In this document: positions 4,067 to 57,669 of the stretch, piece after piece
Position numbering within the stretch: the stretch's first letter is position 1
Layout: every line of letters begins with the position of its first letter
Assembly: GCF_040546585.1 (NCBI RefSeq)
Contig: NZ_JBEPOC010000001.1
Location: 3,286,001-3,350,000 of the forward strand
Reading direction: 5' to 3'
Source of the DNA: Marmoricola sp. OAE513
Lineage (GTDB): Bacteria; Actinomycetota; Actinomycetes; Propionibacteriales; Nocardioidaceae
Length of the DNA stretch: 64,000 bases
The notes under the pieces: generated by a model
What the model was told of the DNA's origin: nothing
Seen by the model: the letters and a program-made list of their open reading frames with translations, nothing else
Database searches by the model: none
Program-made: the position numbers and the translations under genes

Positions 4067-5313
4067 CCCGGCAGGGACCCCCGCCGCCTGACCAGGTGCG
4101 CGCGCTCGGCGTCGTTCTCCGACAGCGCGAGCGCGGCGTCGTACGCCTCTCGGGACTGGTCGTGGCGGTCCATCCGGCGCAGCAGCTCGGCACGGGTCAC
4201 GTGCCACGGGTGGTAGCCGACGAGGTCGAGGCGGTCGACGATCCTCAGCGCGACCTCGGGACCGTCGAGCTCGGCGACCGCGACCGCGCGGTTGAGCTCC
4301 ACGACCGGGTTCGGGTCCTGGGCGAGCAGCTGGTCGTAGAGCTGCACGATCTGCGACCAGTCCGTCATCGAGGCGTCGATCGCGTTGGTGTGCACGGCGT
4401 TGATCGCGGCCTGGATCTGGTACGGCCCGGGGCGGTTGACGGCCAGGCAGCGGCGTACGAGCTGGTGGCCCTCGTCGATCAGAGCCGGGTCCCAGCGGGA
4501 GCGGTCCTGGCGGTCCAGGGTGGTCAGCACGCCGTCGGTGAACCGGGCGTCGCGCCGGGCCTCGGTCAGCAGCATCAGCGCGAGCAGCCCGTCGAGCTCG
4601 GGGGCACCGAGGTCGAAGGAGGTCAGCATCGCGCTGAGCTGGCGGGTCAGCCGGATGGCCTCGGAGGACAGGTCCTCGCGGGCGCCCTCGCCCGTCGAGG
4701 CCAGGTAGCCCTCGTTGAAGATCAGGTACAGCACGGTCATCACGCCGCCGAGACGTTCGACCAGGTCCTGCTCGCGCGGGACGCGGTACGGGATGTTCGC
4801 CGCCTTGATCTTCTGCTTCGAACGGGTGATCCGCTGCGCCATCGTGGTCTCGGGGACCAGGAAGGCGCGGGCGATCTCGGCCACCGTCAGCCCGCCGAGG
4901 AGGCGCAGGGTCAGGGCGACCCTGTTCTCCAGCGCGAGCGCCGGGTGGCAGCAGGTGAACACGAGGCGGAGCCGGTCGTCGGTGACGGGGCCGGTCTCCT
5001 CGTGCGGTTCGTCGTGGTCGAGCATCGTCGCCTCCGCGTGCTTCGCGTCGCGCTTGCCCTCCCGCCTGATCCGGTCGATCGCCTTGTTACCGGCCGTTGT
5101 GGTCAACCACGCGCCGGGGTTGGGCGGGATGCCGTCGGCCGGCCACCGCTCCAAGGCCGTGACCAGCGCCTCGGCGACCGCGTCCTCAGCGAGGTCGATG
5201 TCGCCGAGACGGCGGATCAGCTGGGCCACGACGCGTCCGTGCTCGGCACGGACGATCGCGGCGACCCGGTCGGTGAAGTCCACCTCGGGGCCCGGGTCAG
5301 GGGGTGCGCTCAC
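4063..5313 (-). CDS. ECF42-type RNA polymerase sigma factor with C-terminal TPR-like region
   Basis: 416 residues from the GTG at 5313, chosen because GAAGG sits about 8 bases upstream; a GTG at 5334 lacks this. Sigma-2 (about 10-80) includes AEDAVAEALVTALERWP and AWLTTTAGNKAIDRIRR. Sigma-4 (about 105-165) includes LTLRLLGGLTVAEIARAFL and MAQRITRSKQKI. The long C-terminal part (FNEGYLAS, LNRAVAVAELDGPE) is the DUF6596/TPR extension of ECF42. These factors lack a classic anti-sigma factor and are paired with YCII (DGPF) proteins, as here. The target promoters are unknown. Confidence 0.93.
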   Translation of the reverse strand: MSAPPDPGPEVDFTDRVAAIVRAEHGRVVAQLIRRLGDIDLAEDAVAEALVTALERWPADGIPPNPGAWLTTTAGNKAIDRIRREGKRDAKHAEATMLDHDEPHEETGPVTDDRLRLVFTCCHPALALENRVALTLRLLGGLTVAEIARAFLVPETTMAQRITRSKQKIKAANIPYRVPREQDLVERLGGVMTVLYLIFNEGYLASTGEGAREDLSSEAIRLTRQLSAMLTSFDLGAPELDGLLALMLLTEARRDARFTDGVLTTLDRQDRSRWDPALIDEGHQLVRRCLAVNRPGPYQIQAAINAVHTNAIDASMTDWSQIVQLYDQLLAQDPNPVVELNRAVAVAELDGPEVALRIVDRLDLVGYHPWHVTRAELLRRMDRHDQSREAYDAALALSENDAERAHLVRRRGSLPG

Positions 5314-18433: not shown

Positions 18434-19597
18434 GTGAACCCGGATCCCTACGCCATCCTCGGAGTCGACCGCGACGCGGACGCCGATGCCTTGAAGAAGG
18501 CGTACCGCAAGCTCGCCCGTCAGTACCACCCGGACGTCAACTCCGATCCGGGTGCGCAGGAGAAGTTCAAGGAGGTCTCGGCGGCGTACGAGATCCTCTC
18601 GGACCCCGAGAAGCGTCGCGTCTACGACCTCGGCGGCGACCCGTTCGGCGGCGGTGCAGGTGGGTTCGGCCAGGGTGCGGGCTTCTCGTTCACCGACATC
18701 ATGGACGCGTTCTTCGGCGGTCAGCAGGGTGCGAGCCGCGGTCCCCGGTCACGGATGCGCCGCGGGCAGGACGCGCTCGTGCGCCTCGACCTGGAGCTGG
18801 CCGAGGCCGCCTTCGGCGTCACCCGCGAGCTCAAGGTCGACACGGCGGTGGTGTGCACGACGTGCGACGGTTCCGGTGCTGCGGAGGGCTCGCGCCCGGT
18901 GACCTGCGAGACCTGCCACGGACGCGGCGAGGTCCAGCACGTCCAGCGGTCCTTCCTCGGCGAGATCCGGACCCTGCGCCCGTGCGCCGCCTGCCGCGGG
19001 TACGGCGAGATCATCCCCGACCCGTGCCGCGACTGCGCCGGCGACGGACGGGTGCGCTCGCGCCGCGCGCTCACGGTCAAGATTCCCGGCGGTGTCGACA
19101 CCGGCACCCGGGTGCAGCTGACCGGTGAGGGCGAGGTCGGACCCGGCGGCGGGCCTTCGGGTGACCTGTACGTCGAGGTCCAGGTGCTGCCGCACAAGAC
19201 CTACACCCGTGAGGGCCTGAACCTGCACTGCACCGTGCCGGTCCCGATGACGGCGGCCGCGCTCGGCACCTCGATCACCTTGCCGCTGCTCGAGGCGGAC
19301 CTCGACACCGAGGAGATCAGCGTCGAGCGCGAGGTGCCGATCGACATCCGCCCAGGGACGCAGTCGGGGACGCAGCAGGTTCTGCGTGGCCGCGGCGTAC
19401 CGAGCCTTCGCAGCCAGGCACGTGGCGACGTCGTCGTGACGATCGAGGTCGAGACGCCGACCAAGCTCGACGAGCGCCAGGAGGAGCTTCTCCGAGAGCT
19501 CGCCTCGCTCCGCAACGAGGAGAACCCCGAGGGTCGGGCGCTCCCCGCGCACAAGGGGCTGTTCGGTCGGATGAAGGACGCGTTCAACCAGAAATGA
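18434..19597 (+). CDS. dnaJ: Chaperone protein DnaJ (DnaJ2 type)
   Basis: 387 residues, GTG start. The J domain (about 5-66) has HPD at 32-34, for stimulating DnaK ATPase. A Gly/Phe-rich stretch (about 68-100) precedes the zinc domain with all four CxxCxGxG-type motifs: C141/C144, C158/C161, C184/C187 and C198/C201. The C-terminal client-binding domains follow ([32 protein letters not shown]). The hrcA-linked copy in actinobacteria is usually the second dnaJ, with dnaJ1 beside dnaK elsewhere. The stop overlaps the rsmE start (ATGA). Confidence 0.97.
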
Positions 19598-20328
19598 CCC
19601 TGCCCGTCTTCCTCGCCGGCGCCGTCGCGGGCATGCACCCCGGAGAGGTGCTCCTGCTGGACGGGGACGAGGGGCGACACGCTGCGACCGTGAAGCGGAT
19701 CCGCGCGGGAGAGCAGGTGCTGGTCACCGACGGTGCCGGGACGACCGCGACGTGCACGGTGTCCGCAGCGGCCAGGTCGTCGCTCGACCTGGTCGTCGAC
19801 GAGGTCTCCGTCGCCGAGCGCGCGACACCGCAGGTGACGGTCGTCCAGGCGCTGCCGAAGGGCGACCGCGGCGAGCTCGCCGTCGAGGTGCTCACCGAGA
19901 TCGACGTCGACCGGATCGTTCCGTGGGCAGCCTCGCGGTCGGTCGCGGTGTGGAAGGGCGAGCGAGCGACGAAGGGACTCGCGAAGTGGCGGGCCACCGC
20001 GCGCGAGGCGACGAAGCAGGCCCGACGCGCTTGGCTTCCCGAGGTGCGGGAGCTGGCGTCGACAGCCGAGGTCGTCGCGCTGGTCGCGGAAGCGGATCTG
20101 GCCGTGGTGCTGCACGAGGCGGCCGACCTCCCGATCGCCGAGCTCGACCTGGCCGGAGTGTCCTCGATCGTCGTCGTCGTCGGGCCCGAGGGCGGGATCA
20201 GCGACGACGAGCTCGCGGCGTTCGCCGGGGCTCGAGTCGTCCGGCTCGGGTCCTCGGTGCTGCGGACCTCGACCGCGGGGGTGGCCGCGGTGGCTGCGCT
20301 GCTGTCCCGAACGGATCGCTGGGCCTGA
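19594..20328 (+). CDS. rsmE: 16S rRNA (uracil-1498-N3)-methyltransferase RsmE
   Basis: 244 residues of the SPOUT class. An N-terminal PUA-like part ([31 protein letters not shown]) precedes the knotted SAM domain with [44 protein letters not shown] and [20 protein letters not shown], the family signature. It methylates U1498 in the decoding centre of 16S rRNA. The ATGA overlap with dnaJ places it at the end of the heat-shock operon, a common actinobacterial order. Confidence 0.96.
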
Positions 20329-20334
20329 TGGCCC

Positions 20335-20424
20335 GGTTGTGAACCTCGGAGGGTCACAACCCAGCAACGGTTCTCGATTTTGAGCCTCCGAGGCTCAAAA
20401 TCGAAAAGCACTGCTGGGTTGTGA
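20335..20424. repeat. Nested inverted-repeat element between convergent genes
   Basis: Three interlocking dyads in 90 bp. An outer pair is TCACAACCCAGCA (20354-20366) with TGCTGGGTTGTGA (20412-20424). An inner pair is TCGATTTTGAGCCT (20374-20387) with AGGCTCAAAATCGA (20391-20404), loop CCG. An alternative left pair is GGTTGTGA (20335-20342) with TCACAACC (20354-20361). The two left structures compete for the same bases. It sits between the ends of rsmE and the minus-strand winged-helix gene, so it may act as a two-way terminator, but there is no T-tract. A mobile palindromic unit is another possibility. Confidence 0.85.
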
Positions 20425-20445
20425 GCGCTGTCGGTTCAGTGCCGG

Positions 20446-21504
20446 TCAGGGCGAGGCGAGCAGTGCCTCGACGCGCTCGATCTCGCCCTCGAGCTGGCTG
20501 GCCTGGGACTTCGTCGGCGCACGGAACGGCTCGACGACCACGCGGCCGTCCTCGACCCGCCACAGACCACCGAGCAGCCCGTCGACGAAGAGCGCCGACC
20601 CCACGCCTCCGTTGGCGCCCATCCAGTTCTTGCGCACGTCGTCCGGCGCGATCCGGTCCCGGTCGGCGTGGGAGAGGAAGATGTTGTCGTACATGCCGAG
20701 CAGCGTGACCGGCAGCTCGAGGTCCTCCTCCGCGATCGAAGCGCCGGGGACGTCGTACAGGGTTCGGCCCTTGTCGTCGGTCACCGTGGTCAGCCGTCCG
20801 TCTTTGTGCATCGCGGTGAACACCGGCCCGAGCCGGGTGACCAACGACCACTTCGTCATGTCCGCCGCGGTGGCCGGCCCGTACGCCGCCATGTACCGCA
20901 GCACCAGGTTCTCGACGTCGGCCTCGGCGAACGGGCGGTCCAGGAACCGGTCGGCGTACGCGTAGACCACGCCTCCGCTCTTCTTCCACTGGCCGCGCGG
21001 GGGCGTCTGCAGGAAGGGCAACCTCTCGCGGGCGACGTGCTTCAGCGCGACCGGGTCGATCCCGGGAAAGGCCTCGACCAGGCGGTCTCCGATCGCGGCC
21101 AGGGGCTGCGGCTCGACGACGAAATCGCGCAGGACCCCGTCGAGGTCCTCGGTGCTCAGGTGCTTGGCCGGGCGGCTGGTCTGGTTGGTGGCGCTCTGCC
21201 GGTCCAGCGCCGGCTGCACCCATCCGCGCAGCTGGAGCGCGTCGTCCGCGGTGAGCACGTGCACGGTGCCGCGCATCGTCAGGAACCGGACGAGCTCGCG
21301 CCGACCGAGCAGGTCGGACAGGTCGGCCGGCGTGAACGCGTCGATCCGCGCCGCCAAGGACAGGTACGGCGGCAGGTTGTCCTGGGCCTGGAGTCCGATC
21401 AGGTGCGTGACCACCTCCGGGACGCCGCCCGGAAGGCGCTGACCCGGAACCAAGCCCTGACGCAGCCAGAGGGTCCGGGTCAGCGCGCGCCTCGAGATGT
21501 CCAC
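20446..21504 (-). CDS. Winged-helix DNA-binding-domain protein (HTH_42 / AlkZ-like family)
   Basis: 352 residues from the GTG at 21504, 7 bases after the stop of the preceding gene. Motifs such as GLQAQDNLPPYLSLAARI, LVRFLTMRGTVHVL, TMRGT and DGLLGGLWRVEDGRVVVEPF match the DUF1006/HTH_42 family, which includes the AlkZ interstrand crosslink glycosylase. The catalytic QxQ of AlkZ corresponds to LQAQDN here, so a DNA-glycosylase role is possible, but many actinobacterial paralogues are uncharacterised. It is third in a minus-strand run after a sigma factor and its membrane partner. Confidence 0.8.
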   Translation of the reverse strand: MDISRRALTRTLWLRQGLVPGQRLPGGVPEVVTHLIGLQAQDNLPPYLSLAARIDAFTPADLSDLLGRRELVRFLTMRGTVHVLTADDALQLRGWVQPALDRQSATNQTSRPAKHLSTEDLDGVLRDFVVEPQPLAAIGDRLVEAFPGIDPVALKHVARERLPFLQTPPRGQWKKSGGVVYAYADRFLDRPFAEADVENLVLRYMAAYGPATAADMTKWSLVTRLGPVFTAMHKDGRLTTVTDDKGRTLYDVPGASIAEEDLELPVTLLGMYDNIFLSHADRDRIAPDDVRKNWMGANGGVGSALFVDGLLGGLWRVEDGRVVVEPFRAPTKSQASQLEGEIERVEALLASP

Positions 21505-21511
21505 CTCGGGA

Positions 21512-22531
21512 TTATGGCGCCTCGACGACGATGTCCTTGGTGTCGGAGTTGAGCGGTCGGCCCTCACCGGACTCGTCGGTGTCGCTCACCCGCAGCGTGT
21601 AGGTGCCTGCCTCGAGCCGGAGGTCGAAGGAGAACGGGGAGAGGACGCCGCCCTCGCCCGCCGTCGCGACGCCGCTGTCGACCACGGCGTCGCCGCCGAC
21701 GAGGAGCTCCCACTGCACGTTCGCCTCGAACGCCGCCGCCATGCCGGTGACGGTGATCTTCTGCTGCGGCAGGAACTTCTGGTTGTTGCTCGGGCTCGTG
21801 ATGGAGACGAGCGCGAGCACGTCCTCGTCGGTGCCAGGTCCGAACTCGGGTCCGGTGACGCCGAGGACGGTCTTCTGCAGCTTGTCGCCGACGAAGAACT
21901 CGACCGGCGGCAGGCTGGCGCCCTTGTCGTAGAACGACTTGTGGTTCTCCTGGATGGTCCTGACCACGGCCTGGACCTGGCGGGTCGCCTGCTCGGCCGT
22001 CACGCCCTCGGGAACGTCGGGGACCGCCTGGGACAGGAACACCTGGAAGGACTCGGTGCCGTCGCTGACCATCGCCACGCTCTCGACCACCGACGACTTC
22101 GGCCAGTAGGTCTTGTAGTCCGGGTCGAACGGGGTGCCGTGGGCCGAGGTGTTGGCCGCGTCCTCCTGCGGGTCCTCGTCCCCGACGGGGTGCTCCTCGG
22201 AGAACAGTCGCGGACCATCGGCGCCGTCGCCGACAAAGAACGCGGGCACCGAGAACCCGTCGGCGGGCACGCCCGTCGGGTCTGCCGTCGCGGACGAGCT
22301 CGGGTTACCCGCCGGGCCGGCCTGCGAGGCTTTGTCGTCGTCGCGCGTTGCCCAGAAGGCACCGCCGATCACCAAGGCCATCGCGGCGGCTGCGGCGAGG
22401 GAGGGGAGAAACCAGCGTCGTGCCATCGGGTCCACCTTCTCGGTCCGGGTGCGGATGTCGTCGAGGGTGCCCTCGGGTCGGATGTCGGCGGTGGCTTCGT
22501 GGAAGAGGTTCCGCAGGTCGTCGTCGTTCAT
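21512..22531 (-). CDS. Membrane protein with GerMN-like and Gmad2 domains, sigma-factor partner
   Basis: 339 residues. The N-terminal cytoplasmic segment (about 1-36) resembles the start of anti-sigma proteins (DDDLRNLFHEATADIRPEGTL). One membrane helix follows (about 40-60, FLPSLAAAAAMALVIGGAFW). The external part has a GerMN-like region (VFLSQAVPDVPEGVTAEQ) and a C-terminal Gmad2 Ig-like domain (about 245-339, VSITSPSNNQKFLPQQKITVTG). It overlaps the sigma gene by ATGA. A membrane sensor that controls the sigma factor is the likely role, but no canonical zinc anti-sigma motif is present. Confidence 0.75.
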   Translation of the reverse strand: MNDDDLRNLFHEATADIRPEGTLDDIRTRTEKVDPMARRWFLPSLAAAAAMALVIGGAFWATRDDDKASQAGPAGNPSSSATADPTGVPADGFSVPAFFVGDGADGPRLFSEEHPVGDEDPQEDAANTSAHGTPFDPDYKTYWPKSSVVESVAMVSDGTESFQVFLSQAVPDVPEGVTAEQATRQVQAVVRTIQENHKSFYDKGASLPPVEFFVGDKLQKTVLGVTGPEFGPGTDEDVLALVSITSPSNNQKFLPQQKITVTGMAAAFEANVQWELLVGGDAVVDSGVATAGEGGVLSPFSFDLRLEAGTYTLRVSDTDESGEGRPLNSDTKDIVVEAP

Positions 22532-45145: not shown

Positions 45146-46894
45146 GTGACCGAGACTTCCACCATCACGTTCGACGACCTCGGTCTTGACCCCAAAGTGC
45201 TCAAGGCCATCAAGGACGTCGGCTACGAGACCCCCTCGCCGATCCAGGCCGAGGCCATCCCACCACTGCTCGACGGCGGTCACGTCGTCGGTCTCGCGCA
45301 GACCGGAACCGGCAAGACCGCAGCGTTCGCGCTGCCGATCCTGTCCCGGATCGACCTGAGCCAGAAGACCCCGCAGGTCCTCGTCCTCGCGCCCACCCGT
45401 GAGCTCGCGCTCCAGGTCTCCGAGGCGTTCGAGAAGTACGCGAGCAACATCCGCGGCCTGCACGTCCTCCCCGTGTACGGCGGTCAGGGCTACGGCGTCC
45501 AGCTCTCCGCGCTGCGTCGCGGCGTCCACGTCGTCGTCGGTACGCCGGGCCGCGTCATGGACCACATCGAGAAGGGCACCCTCGACCTCTCCGAGCTGCG
45601 GTTCGTCGTGCTCGACGAGGCCGACGAGATGCTCAACATGGGCTTCGCCGAGGACGTCGAGTCGATCTTGTCCGACACCCCGGACGACAAGCAGGTCGCG
45701 TTGTTCTCCGCGACGATGCCCTCGCAGATCAAGCGGATCGTCAAGCGGCACGCCCCGGACGCGACCGAGATCAAGGTCAAGGCGACCTCGACGACGGCCG
45801 CGAACGTCGAGCAGCGCTTCCTCAAGGTCGCTCACCCGCAGAAGGTCGACGCTCTTACGCGCATCCTCGAGGTCGAGAACTTCGACGGCATGATCATCTT
45901 CGTCCGCACCAAGCACGCCACCGAGGAGCTCGCCGAGAAGCTCCGGGCCCGCGGGTTCTCGGCCGCCGCGATCAACGGTGACGTCGCCCAGGTGCAGCGC
46001 GAGCGGACCGTGGACCAGCTGCGCAACGCCAAGCTGGACATCCTGGTCGCAACCGACGTCGCGGCCCGTGGTCTCGACGTCCCGCGGATCAGCCACGTCA
46101 TCAACCACGACATCCCCACCGACACCGAGTCCTACGTCCACCGCATCGGCCGCACCGGTCGCGCCGGCCGCTCGGGTGTCGCGATCTCCTTCGTCACTCC
46201 GCGCGAGAACCACCTGCTGCGCGCGATCGAGAAGACGAACAAGACCACCCTGACCGAGATGCGGCTGCCGTCGGTCTCCGACGTGAACGCCTTCCGGGTC
46301 TCGAAGTTCAACGACGCCATCGGTCAGGCGATGAGCGACCCGCAGCTCGCGCTGTTCCGTGAGCTGATCGAGGACTACGAGCGCAACAACGACGTACCCG
46401 CGCTCGACATCGCCGCCGCGATCGCGGTGCTCTCCCAGGACGGCCAGCCGCTGCTGCTCGAGGAGATGCCCGAGCCGCTGCGGGTGCCGCACAAGGAGCG
46501 TTCCAAGGACCGCGCGCCGCGTTCCGGCGAGCGCCGCGGGTTCGCCAGCTACCGGCTCGAGGTCGGCAAGCGGCACCACGTCGAGCCCCGCCAGATCGTT
46601 GGTGCACTGGCCAACGAGGGCGGTCTGTCCCGCGAGGACTTCGGCAAGATCGACATCAAGCCGGCCTTCTCCATCGTGGAGCTCCCGGTCGATCTCGACC
46701 CCGCGGTCCTGGACAAGCTGTCGGGCACCCGCATCTCGGGGGTGCTGATCAACATCAAGCCGGACAAGTTCGACCGAGGTCACAAGCGCGGGCACACCGG
46801 TCCGACCGGCAGCCCGAACAAGAAGTGGAACGCCACCGGCGGCGATTCCTACGCGGGCGCCAAGAAGCCGCGGCACAAGAAGCGGGACAAGTAG
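45146..46894 (+). CDS. deaD: DEAD-box RNA helicase (DeaD/CsdA-like) with DbpA-type RNA-binding domain
   Basis: 582 residues, GTG with TACCCT 6 bases upstream. The helicase core has the Q motif (YETPSPIQAEAI), AQTGTGKT, PTRELALQ, VLDEADEML, FSATMP, IIFVRTK, ATDVAARGLD and HRIGRTGRAGR. A C-terminal DbpA-like RNA-binding domain (about 468-545, YRLEVGKRHHVEPRQIVGAL) and a basic tail (KKPRHKKRDK) follow. Such helicases assist ribosome assembly and mRNA turnover, particularly in the cold. It stands alone. Confidence 0.94.
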   Translation: MTETSTITFDDLGLDPKVLKAIKDVGYETPSPIQAEAIPPLLDGGHVVGLAQTGTGKTAAFALPILSRIDLSQKTPQVLVLAPTRELALQVSEAFEKYASNIRGLHVLPVYGGQGYGVQLSALRRGVHVVVGTPGRVMDHIEKGTLDLSELRFVVLDEADEMLNMGFAEDVESILSDTPDDKQVALFSATMPSQIKRIVKRHAPDATEIKVKATSTTAANVEQRFLKVAHPQKVDALTRILEVENFDGMIIFVRTKHATEELAEKLRARGFSAAAINGDVAQVQRERTVDQLRNAKLDILVATDVAARGLDVPRISHVINHDIPTDTESYVHRIGRTGRAGRSGVAISFVTPRENHLLRAIEKTNKTTLTEMRLPSVSDVNAFRVSKFNDAIGQAMSDPQLALFRELIEDYERNNDVPALDIAAAIAVLSQDGQPLLLEEMPEPLRVPHKERSKDRAPRSGERRGFASYRLEVGKRHHVEPRQIVGALANEGGLSREDFGKIDIKPAFSIVELPVDLDPAVLDKLSGTRISGVLINIKPDKFDRGHKRGHTGPTGSPNKKWNATGGDSYAGAKKPRHKKRDK

Positions 46895-47993: not shown

Positions 47994-50276
47994 ATGCGGC
48001 GTTTCCTCCTTGCCCTTGCCGTGGCCCTCTCGGCACTGCTCTTCGTCCCGCAGGCCGCCTCGGCCCACGTGGAGCGGCCGTCGTACTGGCCCGACCCGAC
48101 GGCGGACTGCGCGGTCGCACCCTGCGCGGGCGGCGCCGTACCGACGGCCCGGTCTCTGTCCTCGGCGCTGGACAGGAGCAAGCCCGGCAAGACCCGGGTC
48201 GTCTGCAAGTCCAACTCCCTGAAGCTGGTCAAGAAGTCGATCAGGAAGGCGCGCGAGGACGGCTACTACATCCGTCCGTCCGACCACCGCGCGCTGGGCA
48301 AGAAGGCCGCCGCCAAGCTGCTGCGCATCAACAAGGCCCTGTTCGAGCGCTGCAAGTACAAGGAGATCCAGCCGGCTGTCACTGCCTCGGGGAACAACGA
48401 CCGGGTCGTGATCATGCCGGGCATGTACCTCGAGCCGACCTCGCGGTCCAAGCCGACGTACGACGCCAGGTGCGCGAAGTACCACACCCACTCCGACTCC
48501 GGTGACCCCGGCGCGATGTCGCACGAGGCCCAGCTGCGCTGCCCGAACGACGCCAACCTGATCGCCATCATCGGTCGCGACCTGGGCAAGGGCATGAAGG
48601 CCGACCCCGACCCGGCGCTGGAGAACCGTCTCGGCATCCCGAACCCGGGCAAGTGCATCCGCTGCAACTTCCAGCTCGAGGGTTCCGGTGTCAGCGCCGA
48701 CGACGTGATCATCGAGGCCGGCGACCCGAAGGCCGGGGACTCCGGGCCCTCGGCCGCCGGTCACAAGAAGGACGTCGGCATCTTCGTCGACCGCGCCGAC
48801 GGCGTGGTGCTGCGCAACATCAAGATCCGGCACGCGCGCGAGCACGGCATCTACGTGATCGAGACCGACGGCTACCTGTTCGACCGGTTCAAGGCCTACT
48901 ACGCCGGTGCGTACGGCGTGCTGTCGTTCGTCGGTGACCACGGTGTGGTGCAGAACTGCGACGCCAAGGGGTCCGGTGACTCCGGCATCTACCCGGGCTC
49001 GGGCGCGCCCAGCCTGCTCGCCAACCGCGACACCGGGTTCTACCCGACTGCGCGGTACAGCCAGTACTACCGGTTCTGCGACAGCCACCACAACACGGGC
49101 GGCTTCTCCGGCACCAACAGCCACGGCACGCTGATCTACGCCAACAACTTCTACGACAACGCGTTGGGCCTGACCACCGACGTCTTCACCGCGGCCGGCC
49201 ACCCCGGCTTCCCGCAGGCGGGCAACGTCATCGACGGCAACAACTTCTACTCGAACAACTTCAACCCGTTCAAGCCTGGTTCGGACGTCGTGCCGTTCAT
49301 CCCGGCACCGGTCGGCTCCGGGCTCTGGCTCGCCGGCGGCAACGAGAACATCGTCAAGAACAACCGGTTCTACGACAACTGGCGCTACGGCACCATGATC
49401 TTCGCCGTCCCGGACGCGACCGTCTGCGGCCCGATCCTGGGCGACACGGAGACGCCGATCCCGGGCTGCAACCCGATCGGGATCAGCACGTCGTACGGGA
49501 ACAAGACGTTCAACAACAAGATGGGCGTCGCTCCGAACGGCGACGTCCGGCCGAACGGTACCGACTTCTGGTGGGACGCGTTCCCGACCAACACCGGCAA
49601 CTGCTGGTGGGGCAACACCGCCGCGCCCGGCAAGAAGGTCAGCACGAACACGATGCTGCCGAGCTGCAGCAGCGGCACCAAGCCGAACCAGAGCGTCGGC
49701 CTGGGCAACGTGCTGGGCGAGGCCGAGCTGGTGGCCTGCCTCGCCGGTCTCCAGCTCGGTGGGTACCCGGGCGGCACCGACGGACTCTGCACCTGGGCGG
49801 TCACCCCGAAGAAGCCGGGGAGCGCAGCCGCCAAGGCGGCCGCGTCCTCGACGAAGGTGAGCGACCAGCAGATGAAGGTGATGTCGGCGTTCTGCAAGGC
49901 CGGGCTCGGCCAGCGCACCTGCAAGCCCTACAAGCAGGGTCTCGACGCCGTCGGCCTGCTGAACATGGTGCTCGGACCGCTGCTGCCCGGCAACGTCAAG
50001 CCCGGTCCGACCAGCACCAAGCCGCTGAGCATGTACACCTGCAGCTGGTGGAACAAGGCGACCCCGAGCGCCCAGCTGGAGATCATCCAGCGGATCCGCA
50101 ACATGAACGGCAAGCAGGTCCAGGGCGGCAACAAGGCCGTGGGCTACGGCTCGCTGCTCAAGGACAACGCCGCGAAGCAGCTCTTCGACGGCCGCTGCAC
50201 CAGCGGCTACTCCGGCGGGTTCGCGCTGTACAAGATCTACGGAGCGGCAGCGGCGTTCACCGCAGCCAACCAGTGA
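47994..50276 (+). CDS. Large secreted right-handed parallel beta-helix protein
   Basis: 760 residues with a signal peptide (FLLALAVALSALLFVPQAASA). The N-terminal part (about 30-130) is basic and helical. The central region (about 150-500) has repeated short strands typical of pectate-lyase-like beta-helices: VGIFVDRADGVVLRNIKIRH, HGIYVIETDGYLFDRF, YGVLSFVGDHGVVQNCDA, NVIDGNNFYSNNFNPF, NENIVKNNRFYDNWRYG. Many Asn ladders and cysteines are present. The C-terminal 200 residues are unfamiliar. A polysaccharide lyase or binding role is likely, but I cannot assign catalytic residues. A strong promoter precedes it and a 15-bp hairpin follows. Confidence 0.8.
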   Translation: MRRFLLALAVALSALLFVPQAASAHVERPSYWPDPTADCAVAPCAGGAVPTARSLSSALDRSKPGKTRVVCKSNSLKLVKKSIRKAREDGYYIRPSDHRALGKKAAAKLLRINKALFERCKYKEIQPAVTASGNNDRVVIMPGMYLEPTSRSKPTYDARCAKYHTHSDSGDPGAMSHEAQLRCPNDANLIAIIGRDLGKGMKADPDPALENRLGIPNPGKCIRCNFQLEGSGVSADDVIIEAGDPKAGDSGPSAAGHKKDVGIFVDRADGVVLRNIKIRHAREHGIYVIETDGYLFDRFKAYYAGAYGVLSFVGDHGVVQNCDAKGSGDSGIYPGSGAPSLLANRDTGFYPTARYSQYYRFCDSHHNTGGFSGTNSHGTLIYANNFYDNALGLTTDVFTAAGHPGFPQAGNVIDGNNFYSNNFNPFKPGSDVVPFIPAPVGSGLWLAGGNENIVKNNRFYDNWRYGTMIFAVPDATVCGPILGDTETPIPGCNPIGISTSYGNKTFNNKMGVAPNGDVRPNGTDFWWDAFPTNTGNCWWGNTAAPGKKVSTNTMLPSCSSGTKPNQSVGLGNVLGEAELVACLAGLQLGGYPGGTDGLCTWAVTPKKPGSAAAKAAASSTKVSDQQMKVMSAFCKAGLGQRTCKPYKQGLDAVGLLNMVLGPLLPGNVKPGPTSTKPLSMYTCSWWNKATPSAQLEIIQRIRNMNGKQVQGGNKAVGYGSLLKDNAAKQLFDGRCTSGYSGGFALYKIYGAAAAFTAANQ

Positions 50277-50283
50277 TCCGGGG

Positions 50284-50322
50284 CATGTCGGTTGCTGGAA
50301 GGGACATCCAGCAACCGACGTG
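50284..50322 (+). terminator. Strong hairpin after the beta-helix gene
   Basis: CATGTCGGTTGCTGG pairs with CCAGCAACCGACGTG around a 9-base loop (AAGGGACAT), 15 pairs with one G-T. There is no T-tract, which is common for actinobacterial terminators. It sits between the gene and the CAU tRNA. Confidence 0.65.
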
Positions 50323-50364
50323 CTGCTCCGCGCCCCGGAGCGTATGGGTAGGCTCGCGCGTCGA

Positions 50365-50438
50365 AGGGCGGTAGCTCAGTCGGTCAGAGCAGAGGACTCA
50401 TAATCCTTGGGTCGTGGGTTCGAGCCCCACCCGCCCTA
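50365..50438 (+). tRNA. tRNA with CAU anticodon (Ile2 or elongator Met)
   Basis: Acceptor AGGGCGG (50365-50371) pairs with CCGCCCT (50431-50437), with discriminator A at 50438 and no encoded CCA. Anticodon loop CTCATAA gives CAT; the T arm is GTGGG-TTCGAGC-CCCAC. The A-U first pair and the GAGCAGAGGACTCATAATCC stretch look more like the lysidine-modified Ile2 tRNA than typical elongator Met, but sequence alone cannot settle this. The first pair is not C-A, so it is not an obvious initiator. A methyltransferase stop codon on the other strand overlaps the last three bases. Confidence 0.9.
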
Positions 50439-51104
50439 CTCAGGTGAAATTCTGCCGGTCGGTGCGTCGAGGTCGTCCTGTCGCGCAGGCGTCGCGGCCA
50501 GCAGCGTCAACCAGCTGCTCTGCTCCTCGTCGCTGCTCTGCACGCTCCACTCGACGCTCATCCCGGCCCGCTCGATCTCAGCAACGAACTGCGCCTCGGA
50601 CCACAGTGCTCGGAAGTAGGGGTTGCCGGACTCGCCGACCTCCCAACCTGTCCCTTCGCCCAGGCGCACCGCTACGGCGAACCGGCCGTGGGGACGCAGG
50701 CTGGTCGAGATGCGGGCGAGGACGCCGGGGAGGTGCTGGGGCTCGACGTGCTGCAGGACGTGCAGAGCCACCACCCCGTCGTACGGACCTCCGAGGTCGT
50801 CCGTCACGACGTCGAGCCGTTCGACCCGCTTGCCGCGTGCCGCTTGGAGGTCGAGGAAGGCCTGCGTGATGTCGGTACGGCGGACGCGAAGGCCGGCTTC
50901 CTCCAGGGCATCGGCGTCCCAGCCGGGGCCGGACCCGATCTCGAGGACCTCGCCCGTCGGGACGGCCCGCACCAAGCGGGTCAGGACCTCGGACAACCCG
51001 ACGCCGGCCGTCTCGCGTGCGTAGTCCTCGGCGATCAGCTCGTAGGACGCGACGGTGCGGGCGTTGGGCGGACCCCCTGGGTCCGGCACGTGGCGACGCT
51101 CCAT
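50436..51104 (-). CDS. SAM-dependent class I methyltransferase
   Basis: 222 residues, ATG with TAGGCT 6 bases upstream. VLEIGSGPGWDADALEEAG is the SAM loop (motif I), VRRTDITQAFLD the acidic loop, and VVALHVLQHVEPQHLPGVLARI motif IV onward, as in the methyltransferase 11/25 type. The C-terminal WSEAQFVAEIERAGMSVEW caps the site. The small-molecule substrate is unknown. Its stop codon overlaps the 3' end of the tRNA on the opposite strand, so transcription of the two genes converges. Confidence 0.87.
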   Translation of the reverse strand: MERRHVPDPGGPPNARTVASYELIAEDYARETAGVGLSEVLTRLVRAVPTGEVLEIGSGPGWDADALEEAGLRVRRTDITQAFLDLQAARGKRVERLDVVTDDLGGPYDGVVALHVLQHVEPQHLPGVLARISTSLRPHGRFAVAVRLGEGTGWEVGESGNPYFRALWSEAQFVAEIERAGMSVEWSVQSSDEEQSSWLTLLAATPARQDDLDAPTGRISPE

Positions 51105-55589: not shown

Positions 55590-56503
55590 CCCAGACGATC
55601 GCCGTGGTCGGCGTCCACGTGCTCGACACCCACGTCCTGCGGGTCGAGTCGATCCCCGAGAGCTCCGACGGCGCCGTCGTCGACACGATCCGGATGTCGG
55701 CCGCCGGGACCGCCGGGGGGACCGGTCTGGTGCTGTCCCGCCTCGGCGCCGACGTGCACAGCATCGGCGCGCTCGGTGACGACCCGATTGCCAGCGTGCT
55801 CACCTCGCTTCTTGCTGCGGACGGCATCGACGTCTCGCGCCTGGTCACCAAGGAGGGGGTGCAGACCTCCTCGAGCGTGATCCCGGTGCGCCCGAACGGC
55901 GACCGCCCGGCGTGGCACTGCATCGGCGCCAACGGCACGCTGACGCTCGAGGACATCGACCTGACCTCGGTGCCGGGGCTGACCCACGTGCACCTCGGGG
56001 GGCCCGAGTTCCTCGGTGGCCCGGCCGCCGGCGAGCTGCTCGCCGCGGCGAAGGCGGCCGGCTGCACCACCTCGGTCGACATCCTCGCGCCGGGCGACCC
56101 CGACCTCCTCGCGTGGATCGAGGACTGCCTCCCGCACACCGACTACCTGCTGCCGAACGACGAACAGGTGCTCGGCTTCACCGGCGAGACCGACCTGGCC
56201 GCCGGTGCCCGTGCGCTCGTCGCCAAGGGAGCCGGCTGCGTTGCGGTCACCCAGGGCTCGAAGGGCGCGATCGTCGTGACGGCCGAGGAGGAGCACGAGG
56301 TCCCGGCGTTCAGCATCGAGGTCGTCGACACCACCGGCTGCGGCGACGCGTTCTCCGCCGGCTTCCTGCTCGCCCGGGCCGAGGGCCTCGGCCTCGCCGA
56401 GTCCGCCCGCCTCGGGTGCGCCGCCGCCGCGCAGGTCGCCACCGGCGTCGGCACCGACGCGGGGGACTACGACTGGGACAAGGTCAAGGCGTTCGCCGGC
56501 TAG
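55586..56503 (+). CDS. PfkB-family carbohydrate kinase
   Basis: 305 residues. The N-terminal AAGTAGGTGLVLSRLGADV matches PfkB signature 1 and VVDTTGCGDAFSAGFLLARA (about 245-264) is signature 2, with the catalytic Asp. SVDILAPGDP and LLPNDEQVLGFTG line the substrate site. It resembles ribokinase/fructokinase-type kinases that act on furanose-type sugars with ATP. The operon TetR-aldolase-kinase suggests a small regulated sugar catabolic route with no visible transporter. Confidence 0.9.
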   Translation: MTQTIAVVGVHVLDTHVLRVESIPESSDGAVVDTIRMSAAGTAGGTGLVLSRLGADVHSIGALGDDPIASVLTSLLAADGIDVSRLVTKEGVQTSSSVIPVRPNGDRPAWHCIGANGTLTLEDIDLTSVPGLTHVHLGGPEFLGGPAAGELLAAAKAAGCTTSVDILAPGDPDLLAWIEDCLPHTDYLLPNDEQVLGFTGETDLAAGARALVAKGAGCVAVTQGSKGAIVVTAEEEHEVPAFSIEVVDTTGCGDAFSAGFLLARAEGLGLAESARLGCAAAAQVATGVGTDAGDYDWDKVKAFAG

Positions 56504-56505
56504 CC

Positions 56506-56629
56506 CGGTAGTCGAGCTTGCCGAGACGCGGTTCGGTACGCGTGGACCTCAGGGCGTCTCGGCAAGCTCGACGACCGATGCCGCTCGACGACCGATGCCG
56601 TTCGACGACCGATGCAGCTCGACGACCGG
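56506..56629. repeat. Inverted pair of the dispersed repeat plus 17-bp tandem copies
   Basis: Two 24-bp arms, 56506-56529 (core GTCGAGCTTGCCGAGACGC) and 56554-56577 (core GCGTCTCGGCAAGCTCGACG), are reverse complements with one mismatch, around a 24-base loop. The right arm runs into 17-bp tandem copies of CTCGACGACCGATGCCG (56567-56583, 56584-56600, 56601-56617, partial 56618-56629). The spacer lies between convergent kinase and CNNM genes, so the hairpin may help terminate both. Confidence 0.88.
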
Positions 56630-56631
56630 AC

Positions 56632-57669
56632 TCAGTGGTGCGCTGCGTCGCGGATCTCGCCGACAAGCTCCTCGATGACGTCCTCGAGCGTCGCGATGCC
56701 CACGACCTCGCCGGACTCGTCGACGACTCGCGCCATGTGCGCGCCCTGGGACTGCACCGCTTGCAGCGCGTGCACCAGGGTCTCGCCGGTCCGGACGTTG
56801 GCGAACTGGCGGATCCAGCGGTCCTCGACGACCCGGGCACGTCCATGCGGGTCGTGACCGAGGACGTCCTTGATGTGCAGGTAGCCGATCAGCGTGCCGG
56901 TCTCACCGACGACGGGGAAGCGGGAGAACCCGGTCTCCGCGCAGATCGCCTCGACCTCGGTGACCCGGGCACCCCGCGTGACGGTCTGCAGCCCGGCCAT
57001 CGGCAGGTACACGTCGGCGACCGTTCGGGAGGTGAACCCGAGGGCGCCGGAGAGGCGTTCGTACTCACCCTCCTCGAGCAGGCCCTCGGCGCGGGACTCG
57101 TCGACCAGCGCCTCGACCTGCTCGTGGGTGAACACCGAGGACACCTCGGCCTTCGGCTCGATGCCGACCAGGCGGAGGATGCCGTTCGCGATCGCGTTCA
57201 GGATCCACACGATCGGCTTGAGGGCGGTGACGATCATGATCATCGGCGCGCCGAAGACCAGCGCCGCGCGCTCGGGGCCGGCCAGCGCCAGGTTCTTGGG
57301 CACCATCTCGCCGAGCACCACGTGCAGGTAGACGACGAAGGTCAACGCGATCGTGAACGCGATCGGGTGCACGGCTCCGTGCGGGATGCCCAGGTTCTCG
57401 GCGATAGGTTCCAGCAGGTGGGCCAGTGCGGGTTCGGCGACGGCACCGAGGCCGAGAGAGCAGACCGTGATGCCGAACTGGGCTCCGGCCATGACCAGGG
57501 AGACCTGCTCCATCGCGCGTAGCGCCGACTTGGCCAGCGCCGAACCCTGCTGGGCGCGTGGCTCGATCTGCGTACGACGGGCGGAGACCAACGCGAACTC
57601 GGCACCGACGAAGAACGCGTTGCCGATCAGCAGCGCGACGCCGAGGAGGAGACCGGCTTCCGTGCTCAT
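56632..57669 (-). CDS. CNNM/CorC-type membrane protein (hemolysin family), short form
   Basis: 345 residues from the ATG at 57669. The CNNM transmembrane domain (about 1-180) has GNAFFVGAEFALVSARRTQIE, FGITVCSLGLGAVAEPALAHLL and VVLGEMVPKNLALAGPERAAL. Two CBS domains follow (about 205-335, GFTSRTVADVYLPM and RVVDESGEVVGIATLEDVIEE). It lacks the C-terminal CorC_HlyC domain present in its neighbour, so the two may form a heteromeric unit for Mg2+ or related ion efflux. It follows the paralogue at 57743 by 73 bases. Confidence 0.92.
   Translation of the reverse strand: MSTEAGLLLGVALLIGNAFFVGAEFALVSARRTQIEPRAQQGSALAKSALRAMEQVSLVMAGAQFGITVCSLGLGAVAEPALAHLLEPIAENLGIPHGAVHPIAFTIALTFVVYLHVVLGEMVPKNLALAGPERAALVFGAPMIMIVTALKPIVWILNAIANGILRLVGIEPKAEVSSVFTHEQVEALVDESRAEGLLEEGEYERLSGALGFTSRTVADVYLPMAGLQTVTRGARVTEVEAICAETGFSRFPVVGETGTLIGYLHIKDVLGHDPHGRARVVEDRWIRQFANVRTGETLVHALQAVQSQGAHMARVVDESGEVVGIATLEDVIEELVGEIRDAAHH

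Follow-up and report, generated by a model that had tools for sequence, protein, structure and literature searches.

The gap between a gene for an RsmE-like RNA methyltransferase and a convergent gene for an AlkZ-like protein (117 bp from stop codon to stop codon) is nearly filled by a tandem array of three imperfect palindromic units, and arrays of the same kind occur at five further places in the 3.89-Mb single-contig genome of the host, giving six arrays and 26 units in total. Our tentative reading is that the junction array is one copy of a lineage-restricted dispersed element resembling REPs and BIMEs, composed of 41-bp units that would act as phased sites for a putative protein. Counting against this reading, the arrays number only six, and the first detection of three of these relied on a model with the pitch built in.

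Layout of the array

The analysis covered a window of 64,000 nucleotides, by which we mean the whole stretch of DNA under study. Each unit is 27 nt long, and the units share the half-site consensus TTNTGRRC-N7-GYYCANAA, a symmetric 23-bp site; in all six arrays they lie between called genes. The features at the junction are collected in Table 1. We take the PF04452 product of the left-hand gene (19594-20328) to be RsmE, and the nearest named relatives of the locus are records of Nocardioides, Marmoricola and Propionibacteriales, so that the host is probably a Nocardioidaceae-like actinobacterium.

Table 1. Features at the junction of the RsmE-like and AlkZ-like genes (positions in the window)
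Feature	Position	Strand	Details
RsmE-like RNA methyltransferase gene, left flank	19594-20328	+	PF04452, E = 8.2e-45
Tandem array of three imperfect palindromic units	20335-20443		centres 20348, 20389 and 20430; pitch exactly 41 bp; motif scan and alignment
Unit 1, GGTTGTGAACC-TCGGA-GGGTCACAACC	20335-20361		motif-scan score 35.6
Unit 2, perfect 31-nt palindrome (inner hairpin of the initial annotation)	20374-20404		motif-scan score 39.2
Unit 3, degenerate; left half is the right outer arm of the initial annotation	20417-20443		motif-scan score 21.2
Left outer arm, comprising the right half of unit 1 and 5 bases of spacer	20354-20366		inverted-repeat search
Right outer arm, comprising 5 bases of spacer and the left half of unit 3	20412-20424		inverted-repeat search
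Long imperfect inverted repeat over nearly the entire gap	20333-20445		56-nt arms (20333-20388 and 20390-20445), 75% complementary, centre 20389
AlkZ-like gene, convergent right flank	20446-21567	-	PF06224, E = 2.4e-62

The initial annotation described this place as a 90-bp nested inverted repeat (20335-20424) in which an inner hairpin sits within outer arms and the left outer arm can pair upstream instead. The repeats are real: the outer arms are perfect over 13 bp, the inner palindrome has 15-bp arms around a 1-nt centre, and the left outer arm does have an upstream partner, since GGTTGTGA at 20335-20342 can pair with TCACAACC at 20354-20361. The unit had been misread, however: the outer arms are halves of units 1 and 3, unit 1 has the upstream GGTTGTGA as one half and most of the left outer arm as the other, and a third, weaker unit extends the element to 20443. 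Its placement exactly between convergent genes was correct, as was the remark setting it apart from usual terminators: the region 19500-21600 has 0 sites resembling an intrinsic terminator, and T's are found on the 5' side and A's on the 3' side of the GC core, opposite to a hairpin with a U-tract.

The junction is not the only place with strong palindromes: perfect inverted repeats (arms of at least 13, gap of at most 70) occur at six places in the window, compared with 0.42 on average and 3 at most in 50 control sequences from a first-order Markov model. At 50276-50439, a perfect hairpin (GTCGGTTGCTGGA...TCCAGCAACCGAC) stands upstream of a tRNA-Met gene (50365-50439).

Arrays in the genome and in relatives

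A blastn search of the element against its own genome gave two further places (L003/L046 and L005/L045), and a covariance model that was built on unit pairs of these first three arrays and contains the pitch gave three more; the junction array served as a seed, so that model matches to it hold by construction. The arrays comprise three units at the junction and in L046, L045 and L043 (the first one of L043 being weak), four in L044 and ten in L042. Over the 26 units there are 20 intervals, 14 of them 41 bp, three 42 bp, two 43 bp and one 40 bp; the scan that placed the units ignored the pitch, while the regions scanned had partly been found with it. We also counted matches to a pitch-free single-unit pattern, TTNTGRRCCNNNNNGGYTCANAA, with at most two mismatches. 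It matched the genome 23 times forward and 18 times in reverse, and its backwards control matched 0 times forward and once in reverse. All but one of the 23 forward matches fell inside the six arrays, the remaining one (1997111) being a lone site. The modules named in the initial annotation thus recur and are not unique in the genome.

At the margin of detection, the first unit of L043 (score 8.5) was counted, and isolated sites at 45195 in the window (8.0) and at 1387222 in L047 (7.8) were left out; one extra weak unit each in L043 and L045, placed by eye, was used only in the same-index comparison below. The array of L042 (2742-3141) consists of a block of about 125 bp and three units, present three times in almost identical form, plus one unit, and judging from these copies it reflects local tandem amplification. 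The same locus has a hairpin of ordinary look centred at 2694. An initial impression that all arrays share one strand and one order was dropped, since L043 and L045 give the better match to L044 when reverse-complemented. The arrays lie at 0.37, 0.76, 2.87, 3.09, 3.31 and 3.39 Mb, all within a 46% arc that runs from 2.87 Mb through 0 to 0.76 Mb.

Convergent genes flank five of the six arrays (junction, L042, L043, L044 and L045); the sixth, L046, has tandem neighbours, and its last unit overlaps the stop codon of one of them. The count of five depends on our correction of the gene calls: a simple home-made gene finder alone called three of the six convergent, having missed the Pfam-supported YchJ-like and MaoC genes. 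By the same finder, 11 of the 56 neighbouring gene pairs in the window are convergent, and 8 of 31 where the gap is at least 50 bp; at this latter rate, the chance of at least five of six is about 0.005, while three of six would not stand out. Convergent placement would equally follow from neutral insertion at harmless sites. The flanking genes include those for RsmE, AlkZ, a histidine kinase, a YchJ-like protein, pyrimidine nucleoside phosphorylase and MaoC, two DAHP synthases and DUF4873, while 3 of the 12 flanking proteins gave no Pfam match. These genes show no regulon theme, which counts against a protein-site reading. Another nested palindrome (GTCGAGCTTGCCGAGACG ... CGTCTCGGCAAGCTCGACGACC), with GCTCGACGACCGATGCC-like tandem repeats after it, lies at 56503-56632 in the window between genes that the simple finder calls convergent, and similar letters occur in L047 near contig positions 1387280-1387350.

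Next, we compared the same junction in relatives. The ends of the RsmE-like and AlkZ-like genes share 4 bp in L068 and L069 and are separated by 1 bp in L070 and by 11 bp in L071; because of this, the junction array is probably a lineage-specific gain. In L072, from a Marmoricola MAG, a 76-bp gap (4736-4811) holds an unrelated nested palindrome, GGTTTCGAGACGG...GTCTCGAAACC, which we take to be a repeat common in Nocardioides. PF06224 was confirmed in the AlkZ-like partner at all five junctions (L068 to L072), and in L073 to L076 no such convergent partner was seen right after RsmE.

Searches for other carriers agreed with a narrow distribution. By blastn, neither 23 further genomes of the genus nor the plasmid and phage collections gave a copy of the array, and viral contigs had no match to a two-unit pattern at a pitch of 41 only. 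Among 341 family genomes, the model matched two at E ≤ 1e-4, the host genome and G286 (1.3e-6), and yielded no second carrier; this search scored 14 candidates per genome, so that weak arrays could be lost. Within the genus, single matches at E ≤ 0.01 occurred in G020, G017, G009 and G022, with no array at the G020 place (L048) and one palindrome without neighbours at the G009 place (L079). With at most one mismatch allowed, the pattern matched 24 of 391 genomes of the order (a set that overlaps the family set), and only the host genome had several matching places. Since 27 of the 391 have matches to the backwards control, the single sites elsewhere look like chance hits.

A narrower pattern, GGTTNTGANC..GNTCANAACC, matched 4 of the 341 family genomes in the forward direction, once each in the host genome and G009, 29 times in G216 and 28 times in G286; its backwards control matched only in two other genomes. 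G216 and G286 are two species of another genus, and they carry a TTNTGAC palindrome element with a 31-bp pitch (loci L080-L101 and L065), which we refer to as the GGTTNTGACCC element. Among the matches listed, 17 loci of the two genomes held 28 palindromes by a stricter pattern, and 11 of the 12 close palindrome pairs at these loci were exactly 62 bp apart (the other, 37 bp), often with a different palindrome midway; some palindromes are single (e.g., L080, L086 and L088). The N positions of the 28 palindromes ignore pairing (T-G 8, T-A 7, C-A 6, C-G 2, G-C 2, C-C 2, G-G 1). Four GGTTNTGACCC-type elements occupy orthologous places in both species. In L096 of G216, an element at about 1440-1526 lies inside the open frame 620-1813 of a chorismate-binding enzyme, immediately ahead of the PF00425 domain match, and in L093 of G286 there is an element at the orthologous place.

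Conservation, folding and competing explanations

To compare sites and spacers, we aligned units between arrays, using one copy per array (20 units). Identity was 77.5% in motif columns, 32.8% in N columns, 40% in the 7-bp centre and 27.9% in spacers, where 28.2% is expected from composition; the motif value is inflated and decayed arrays will have been missed, because the arrays were found via the motif. In the four 4-unit copies (16 units, including the two weak ones placed by eye), units of the same index agreed at 75.9% of motif, 62.5% of N and 33.3% of spacer columns, and units of different index at 69.7%, 25.7% and 26.8%. The higher same-index identity suggests that the 4-unit copies probably share descent as whole elements, the spacers having largely diverged while the half-sites and their spacing were kept.

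We then evaluated folding. The junction array folds better than dinucleotide shuffles as RNA of the + strand (z = -6.4), RNA of the - strand (z = -7.55) and DNA of the + strand (z = -8.5), with 0 of 200 shuffles as good in each of the three cases. Such very stable folds on both strands, the position between two stop codons and the convergent setting of most arrays are what could be expected if the element were a bidirectional terminator or a stabiliser of mRNA 3' ends acting through RNA hairpins. We consider this quite unlikely: the array has no U-tract, relatives have little or no gap at the same junction, and in most other copies pairing between the arms is poorer. Moreover, if hairpins were under selection, their stems should covary, and in an 18-row alignment paired cells amounted to 73.4% compared with 74.5% in shuffles, with no excess. 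A weak covariation signal in the 9-unit seed alignment (24 of 500 shuffles reached its score) vanished with more units. A left arm pairs with the right arm of its own unit at 6.85 of 11 positions, with those of units in other arrays at 7.09 and within the array at 7.25. Kept half-sites, together with stems that do not covary in the larger alignment, fit phased DNA-protein sites better than a conserved RNA fold, and the conserved columns resemble a symmetric site for a protein that recurs every four helical turns or so. In Rfam, region 20000-20800 gave only a microRNA precursor model (25.8 bits, threshold 100) and no gathering-score match. DnaA boxes, parS, integron attC and the core sites of tyrosine recombinases were also weighed as candidate identities and provisionally discarded.

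The initial annotation had further proposed a switch between two structures, the upstream arm competing with the outer arm. Folding lends this some colour, in that the unit-1 hairpin is predicted to form first in the growing + strand RNA and to be replaced by the nested fold once unit 3 has been made, so that a passing sequence of folds is conceivable. A balanced two-state device is nevertheless not indicated by the predicted energies: the nested fold reaches -70.4 kcal/mol against -45.7 for the three local hairpins summed on the + strand, and -67.8 against -43.9 on the - strand, a gap of about 25 kcal/mol. The competing stems are expected, because similar palindromes in tandem always let unit 1 pair with unit 3. 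Self-complementarity over the whole length belongs to the junction copy only (score 110 with itself, 57 to 66 with other copies); for every other row, its own reverse complement scores below that of at least one other row. A location downstream of both genes, moreover, offers a switch no obvious output, and we regard the proposal as extremely improbable.

A more serious contender, although still somewhat unlikely, is a non-autonomous, selfish mobile palindromic repeat (REP, REPIN or MITE type) that has no host function and for which convergent junctions are merely harmless places to insert. It would account for copies dispersed in one genome only, among the genomes searched, for array-free junctions in relatives and for the amplification in L042. 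It also agrees with portions of PMC3733652, which place most REPs between ORFs that are unidirectional or convergent, allow for small families and describe CGTC-type REPs as having no transposase of their own. Against it stand the small number of loci, the results for the transposase and the GTAG tag given below, and the contrast between a kept motif and spacers near composition, which neutral decay alone would not yield.

On the reading that we tentatively favour, the units would be DNA sites for a putative dimeric protein, and since 41 bp is close to four turns, they would all face almost the same side of the helix. A row of such bound proteins downstream of both genes might block read-through from either direction or anchor DNA topology, as gyrase-binding BIME-2 arrays may do in E. 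coli, and the hairpin fold would be a by-product of site symmetry. New arrays may arise by copying or insertion into 3' junctions followed by local tandem amplification. A point against this reading is that the junction copy is an unusually good hairpin, for which a pure DNA-site model has no need.

Comparison with known repeat systems

By architecture and position, REPs and BIMEs are the nearest kind, and the array is built like a BIME: portions of PMC2817692 and PMC3733652 describe imperfect palindromes of 20 to 40 bp in regularly spaced composites that are dispersed, intergenic and often flanked by convergent genes. Our arrays likewise have extragenic, palindromic units at a regular spacing of 40 to 43 bp. 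They differ in having only six loci and 26 scored units, in the near symmetry of the units and in an unrelated sequence. Copy numbers of REPs are usually above 100 per genome according to passages of PMC2817692, and many families hold 20 to 100 units or fewer according to passages of PMC3733652. BIME palindromes are preserved in a way that suggests complementary mutations (part of PMC2817692), whereas none were detected in the stems of our larger alignment. Within 20 nt of the centres of the 26 units, we found GTAG 0 times, CTAC 0 times, CGTC 4 times and GACG 4 times. The RAYT-type Y1 transposase (PF01797) was found in 0 of 13 genomes, the host included, while a control search was positive in 5 of 14 named genomes. 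Because the tag and RAYT tests fail and the copy number is low, we do not file the element as a member of a REP family.

REPINs, which are paired REPs mobilised by RAYT, are similar in being composites with inverted parts, as in L044, where each of the two middle units matches the reverse complement of the other; unlike REPINs, our copies are diverged rather than near-identical, the L042 blocks excepted, and go without a detected Y1 transposase in the 13 genomes. An intrinsic bidirectional terminator shares the hairpin between convergent stop codons and differs from the array, which has reversed T/A polarity, no T-run and several phased units. The GGTTNTGACCC element resembles the 41-bp arrays in its TTNTGA core with a free N, its equally spaced palindromes and its many copies; it differs in its 31-bp pitch (62 bp between outer palindromes), its different middle palindrome and the replacement of RR by AC, and we matched it to no described family. 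A literature search found no description of a 41-bp array element, which is not proof of absence, and the main text of PMC2817692 and PMC3733652 has 0 matches to the term 'actinobacteri'.

BIME-2 arrays bind gyrase (portions of PMC2817692 and PMC3733652). We think it unlikely, if worth stating, that a putative actinobacterial protein makes helically phased arrays at convergent junctions into two-way transcription barriers or topological insulators, related species using a re-tuned TTNTGA code at a three-turn (31-bp) rather than a four-turn (41-bp) pitch. Palindromic repeat arrays at convergent junctions are familiar from proteobacteria, and here they occur in an actinobacterium. The element described here combines a near-constant pitch, half-sites kept over randomised spacers and a setting in which RAYT was not found; with these features, one short DNA probe could directly test the arrays as insulating protein platforms for convergent genes.
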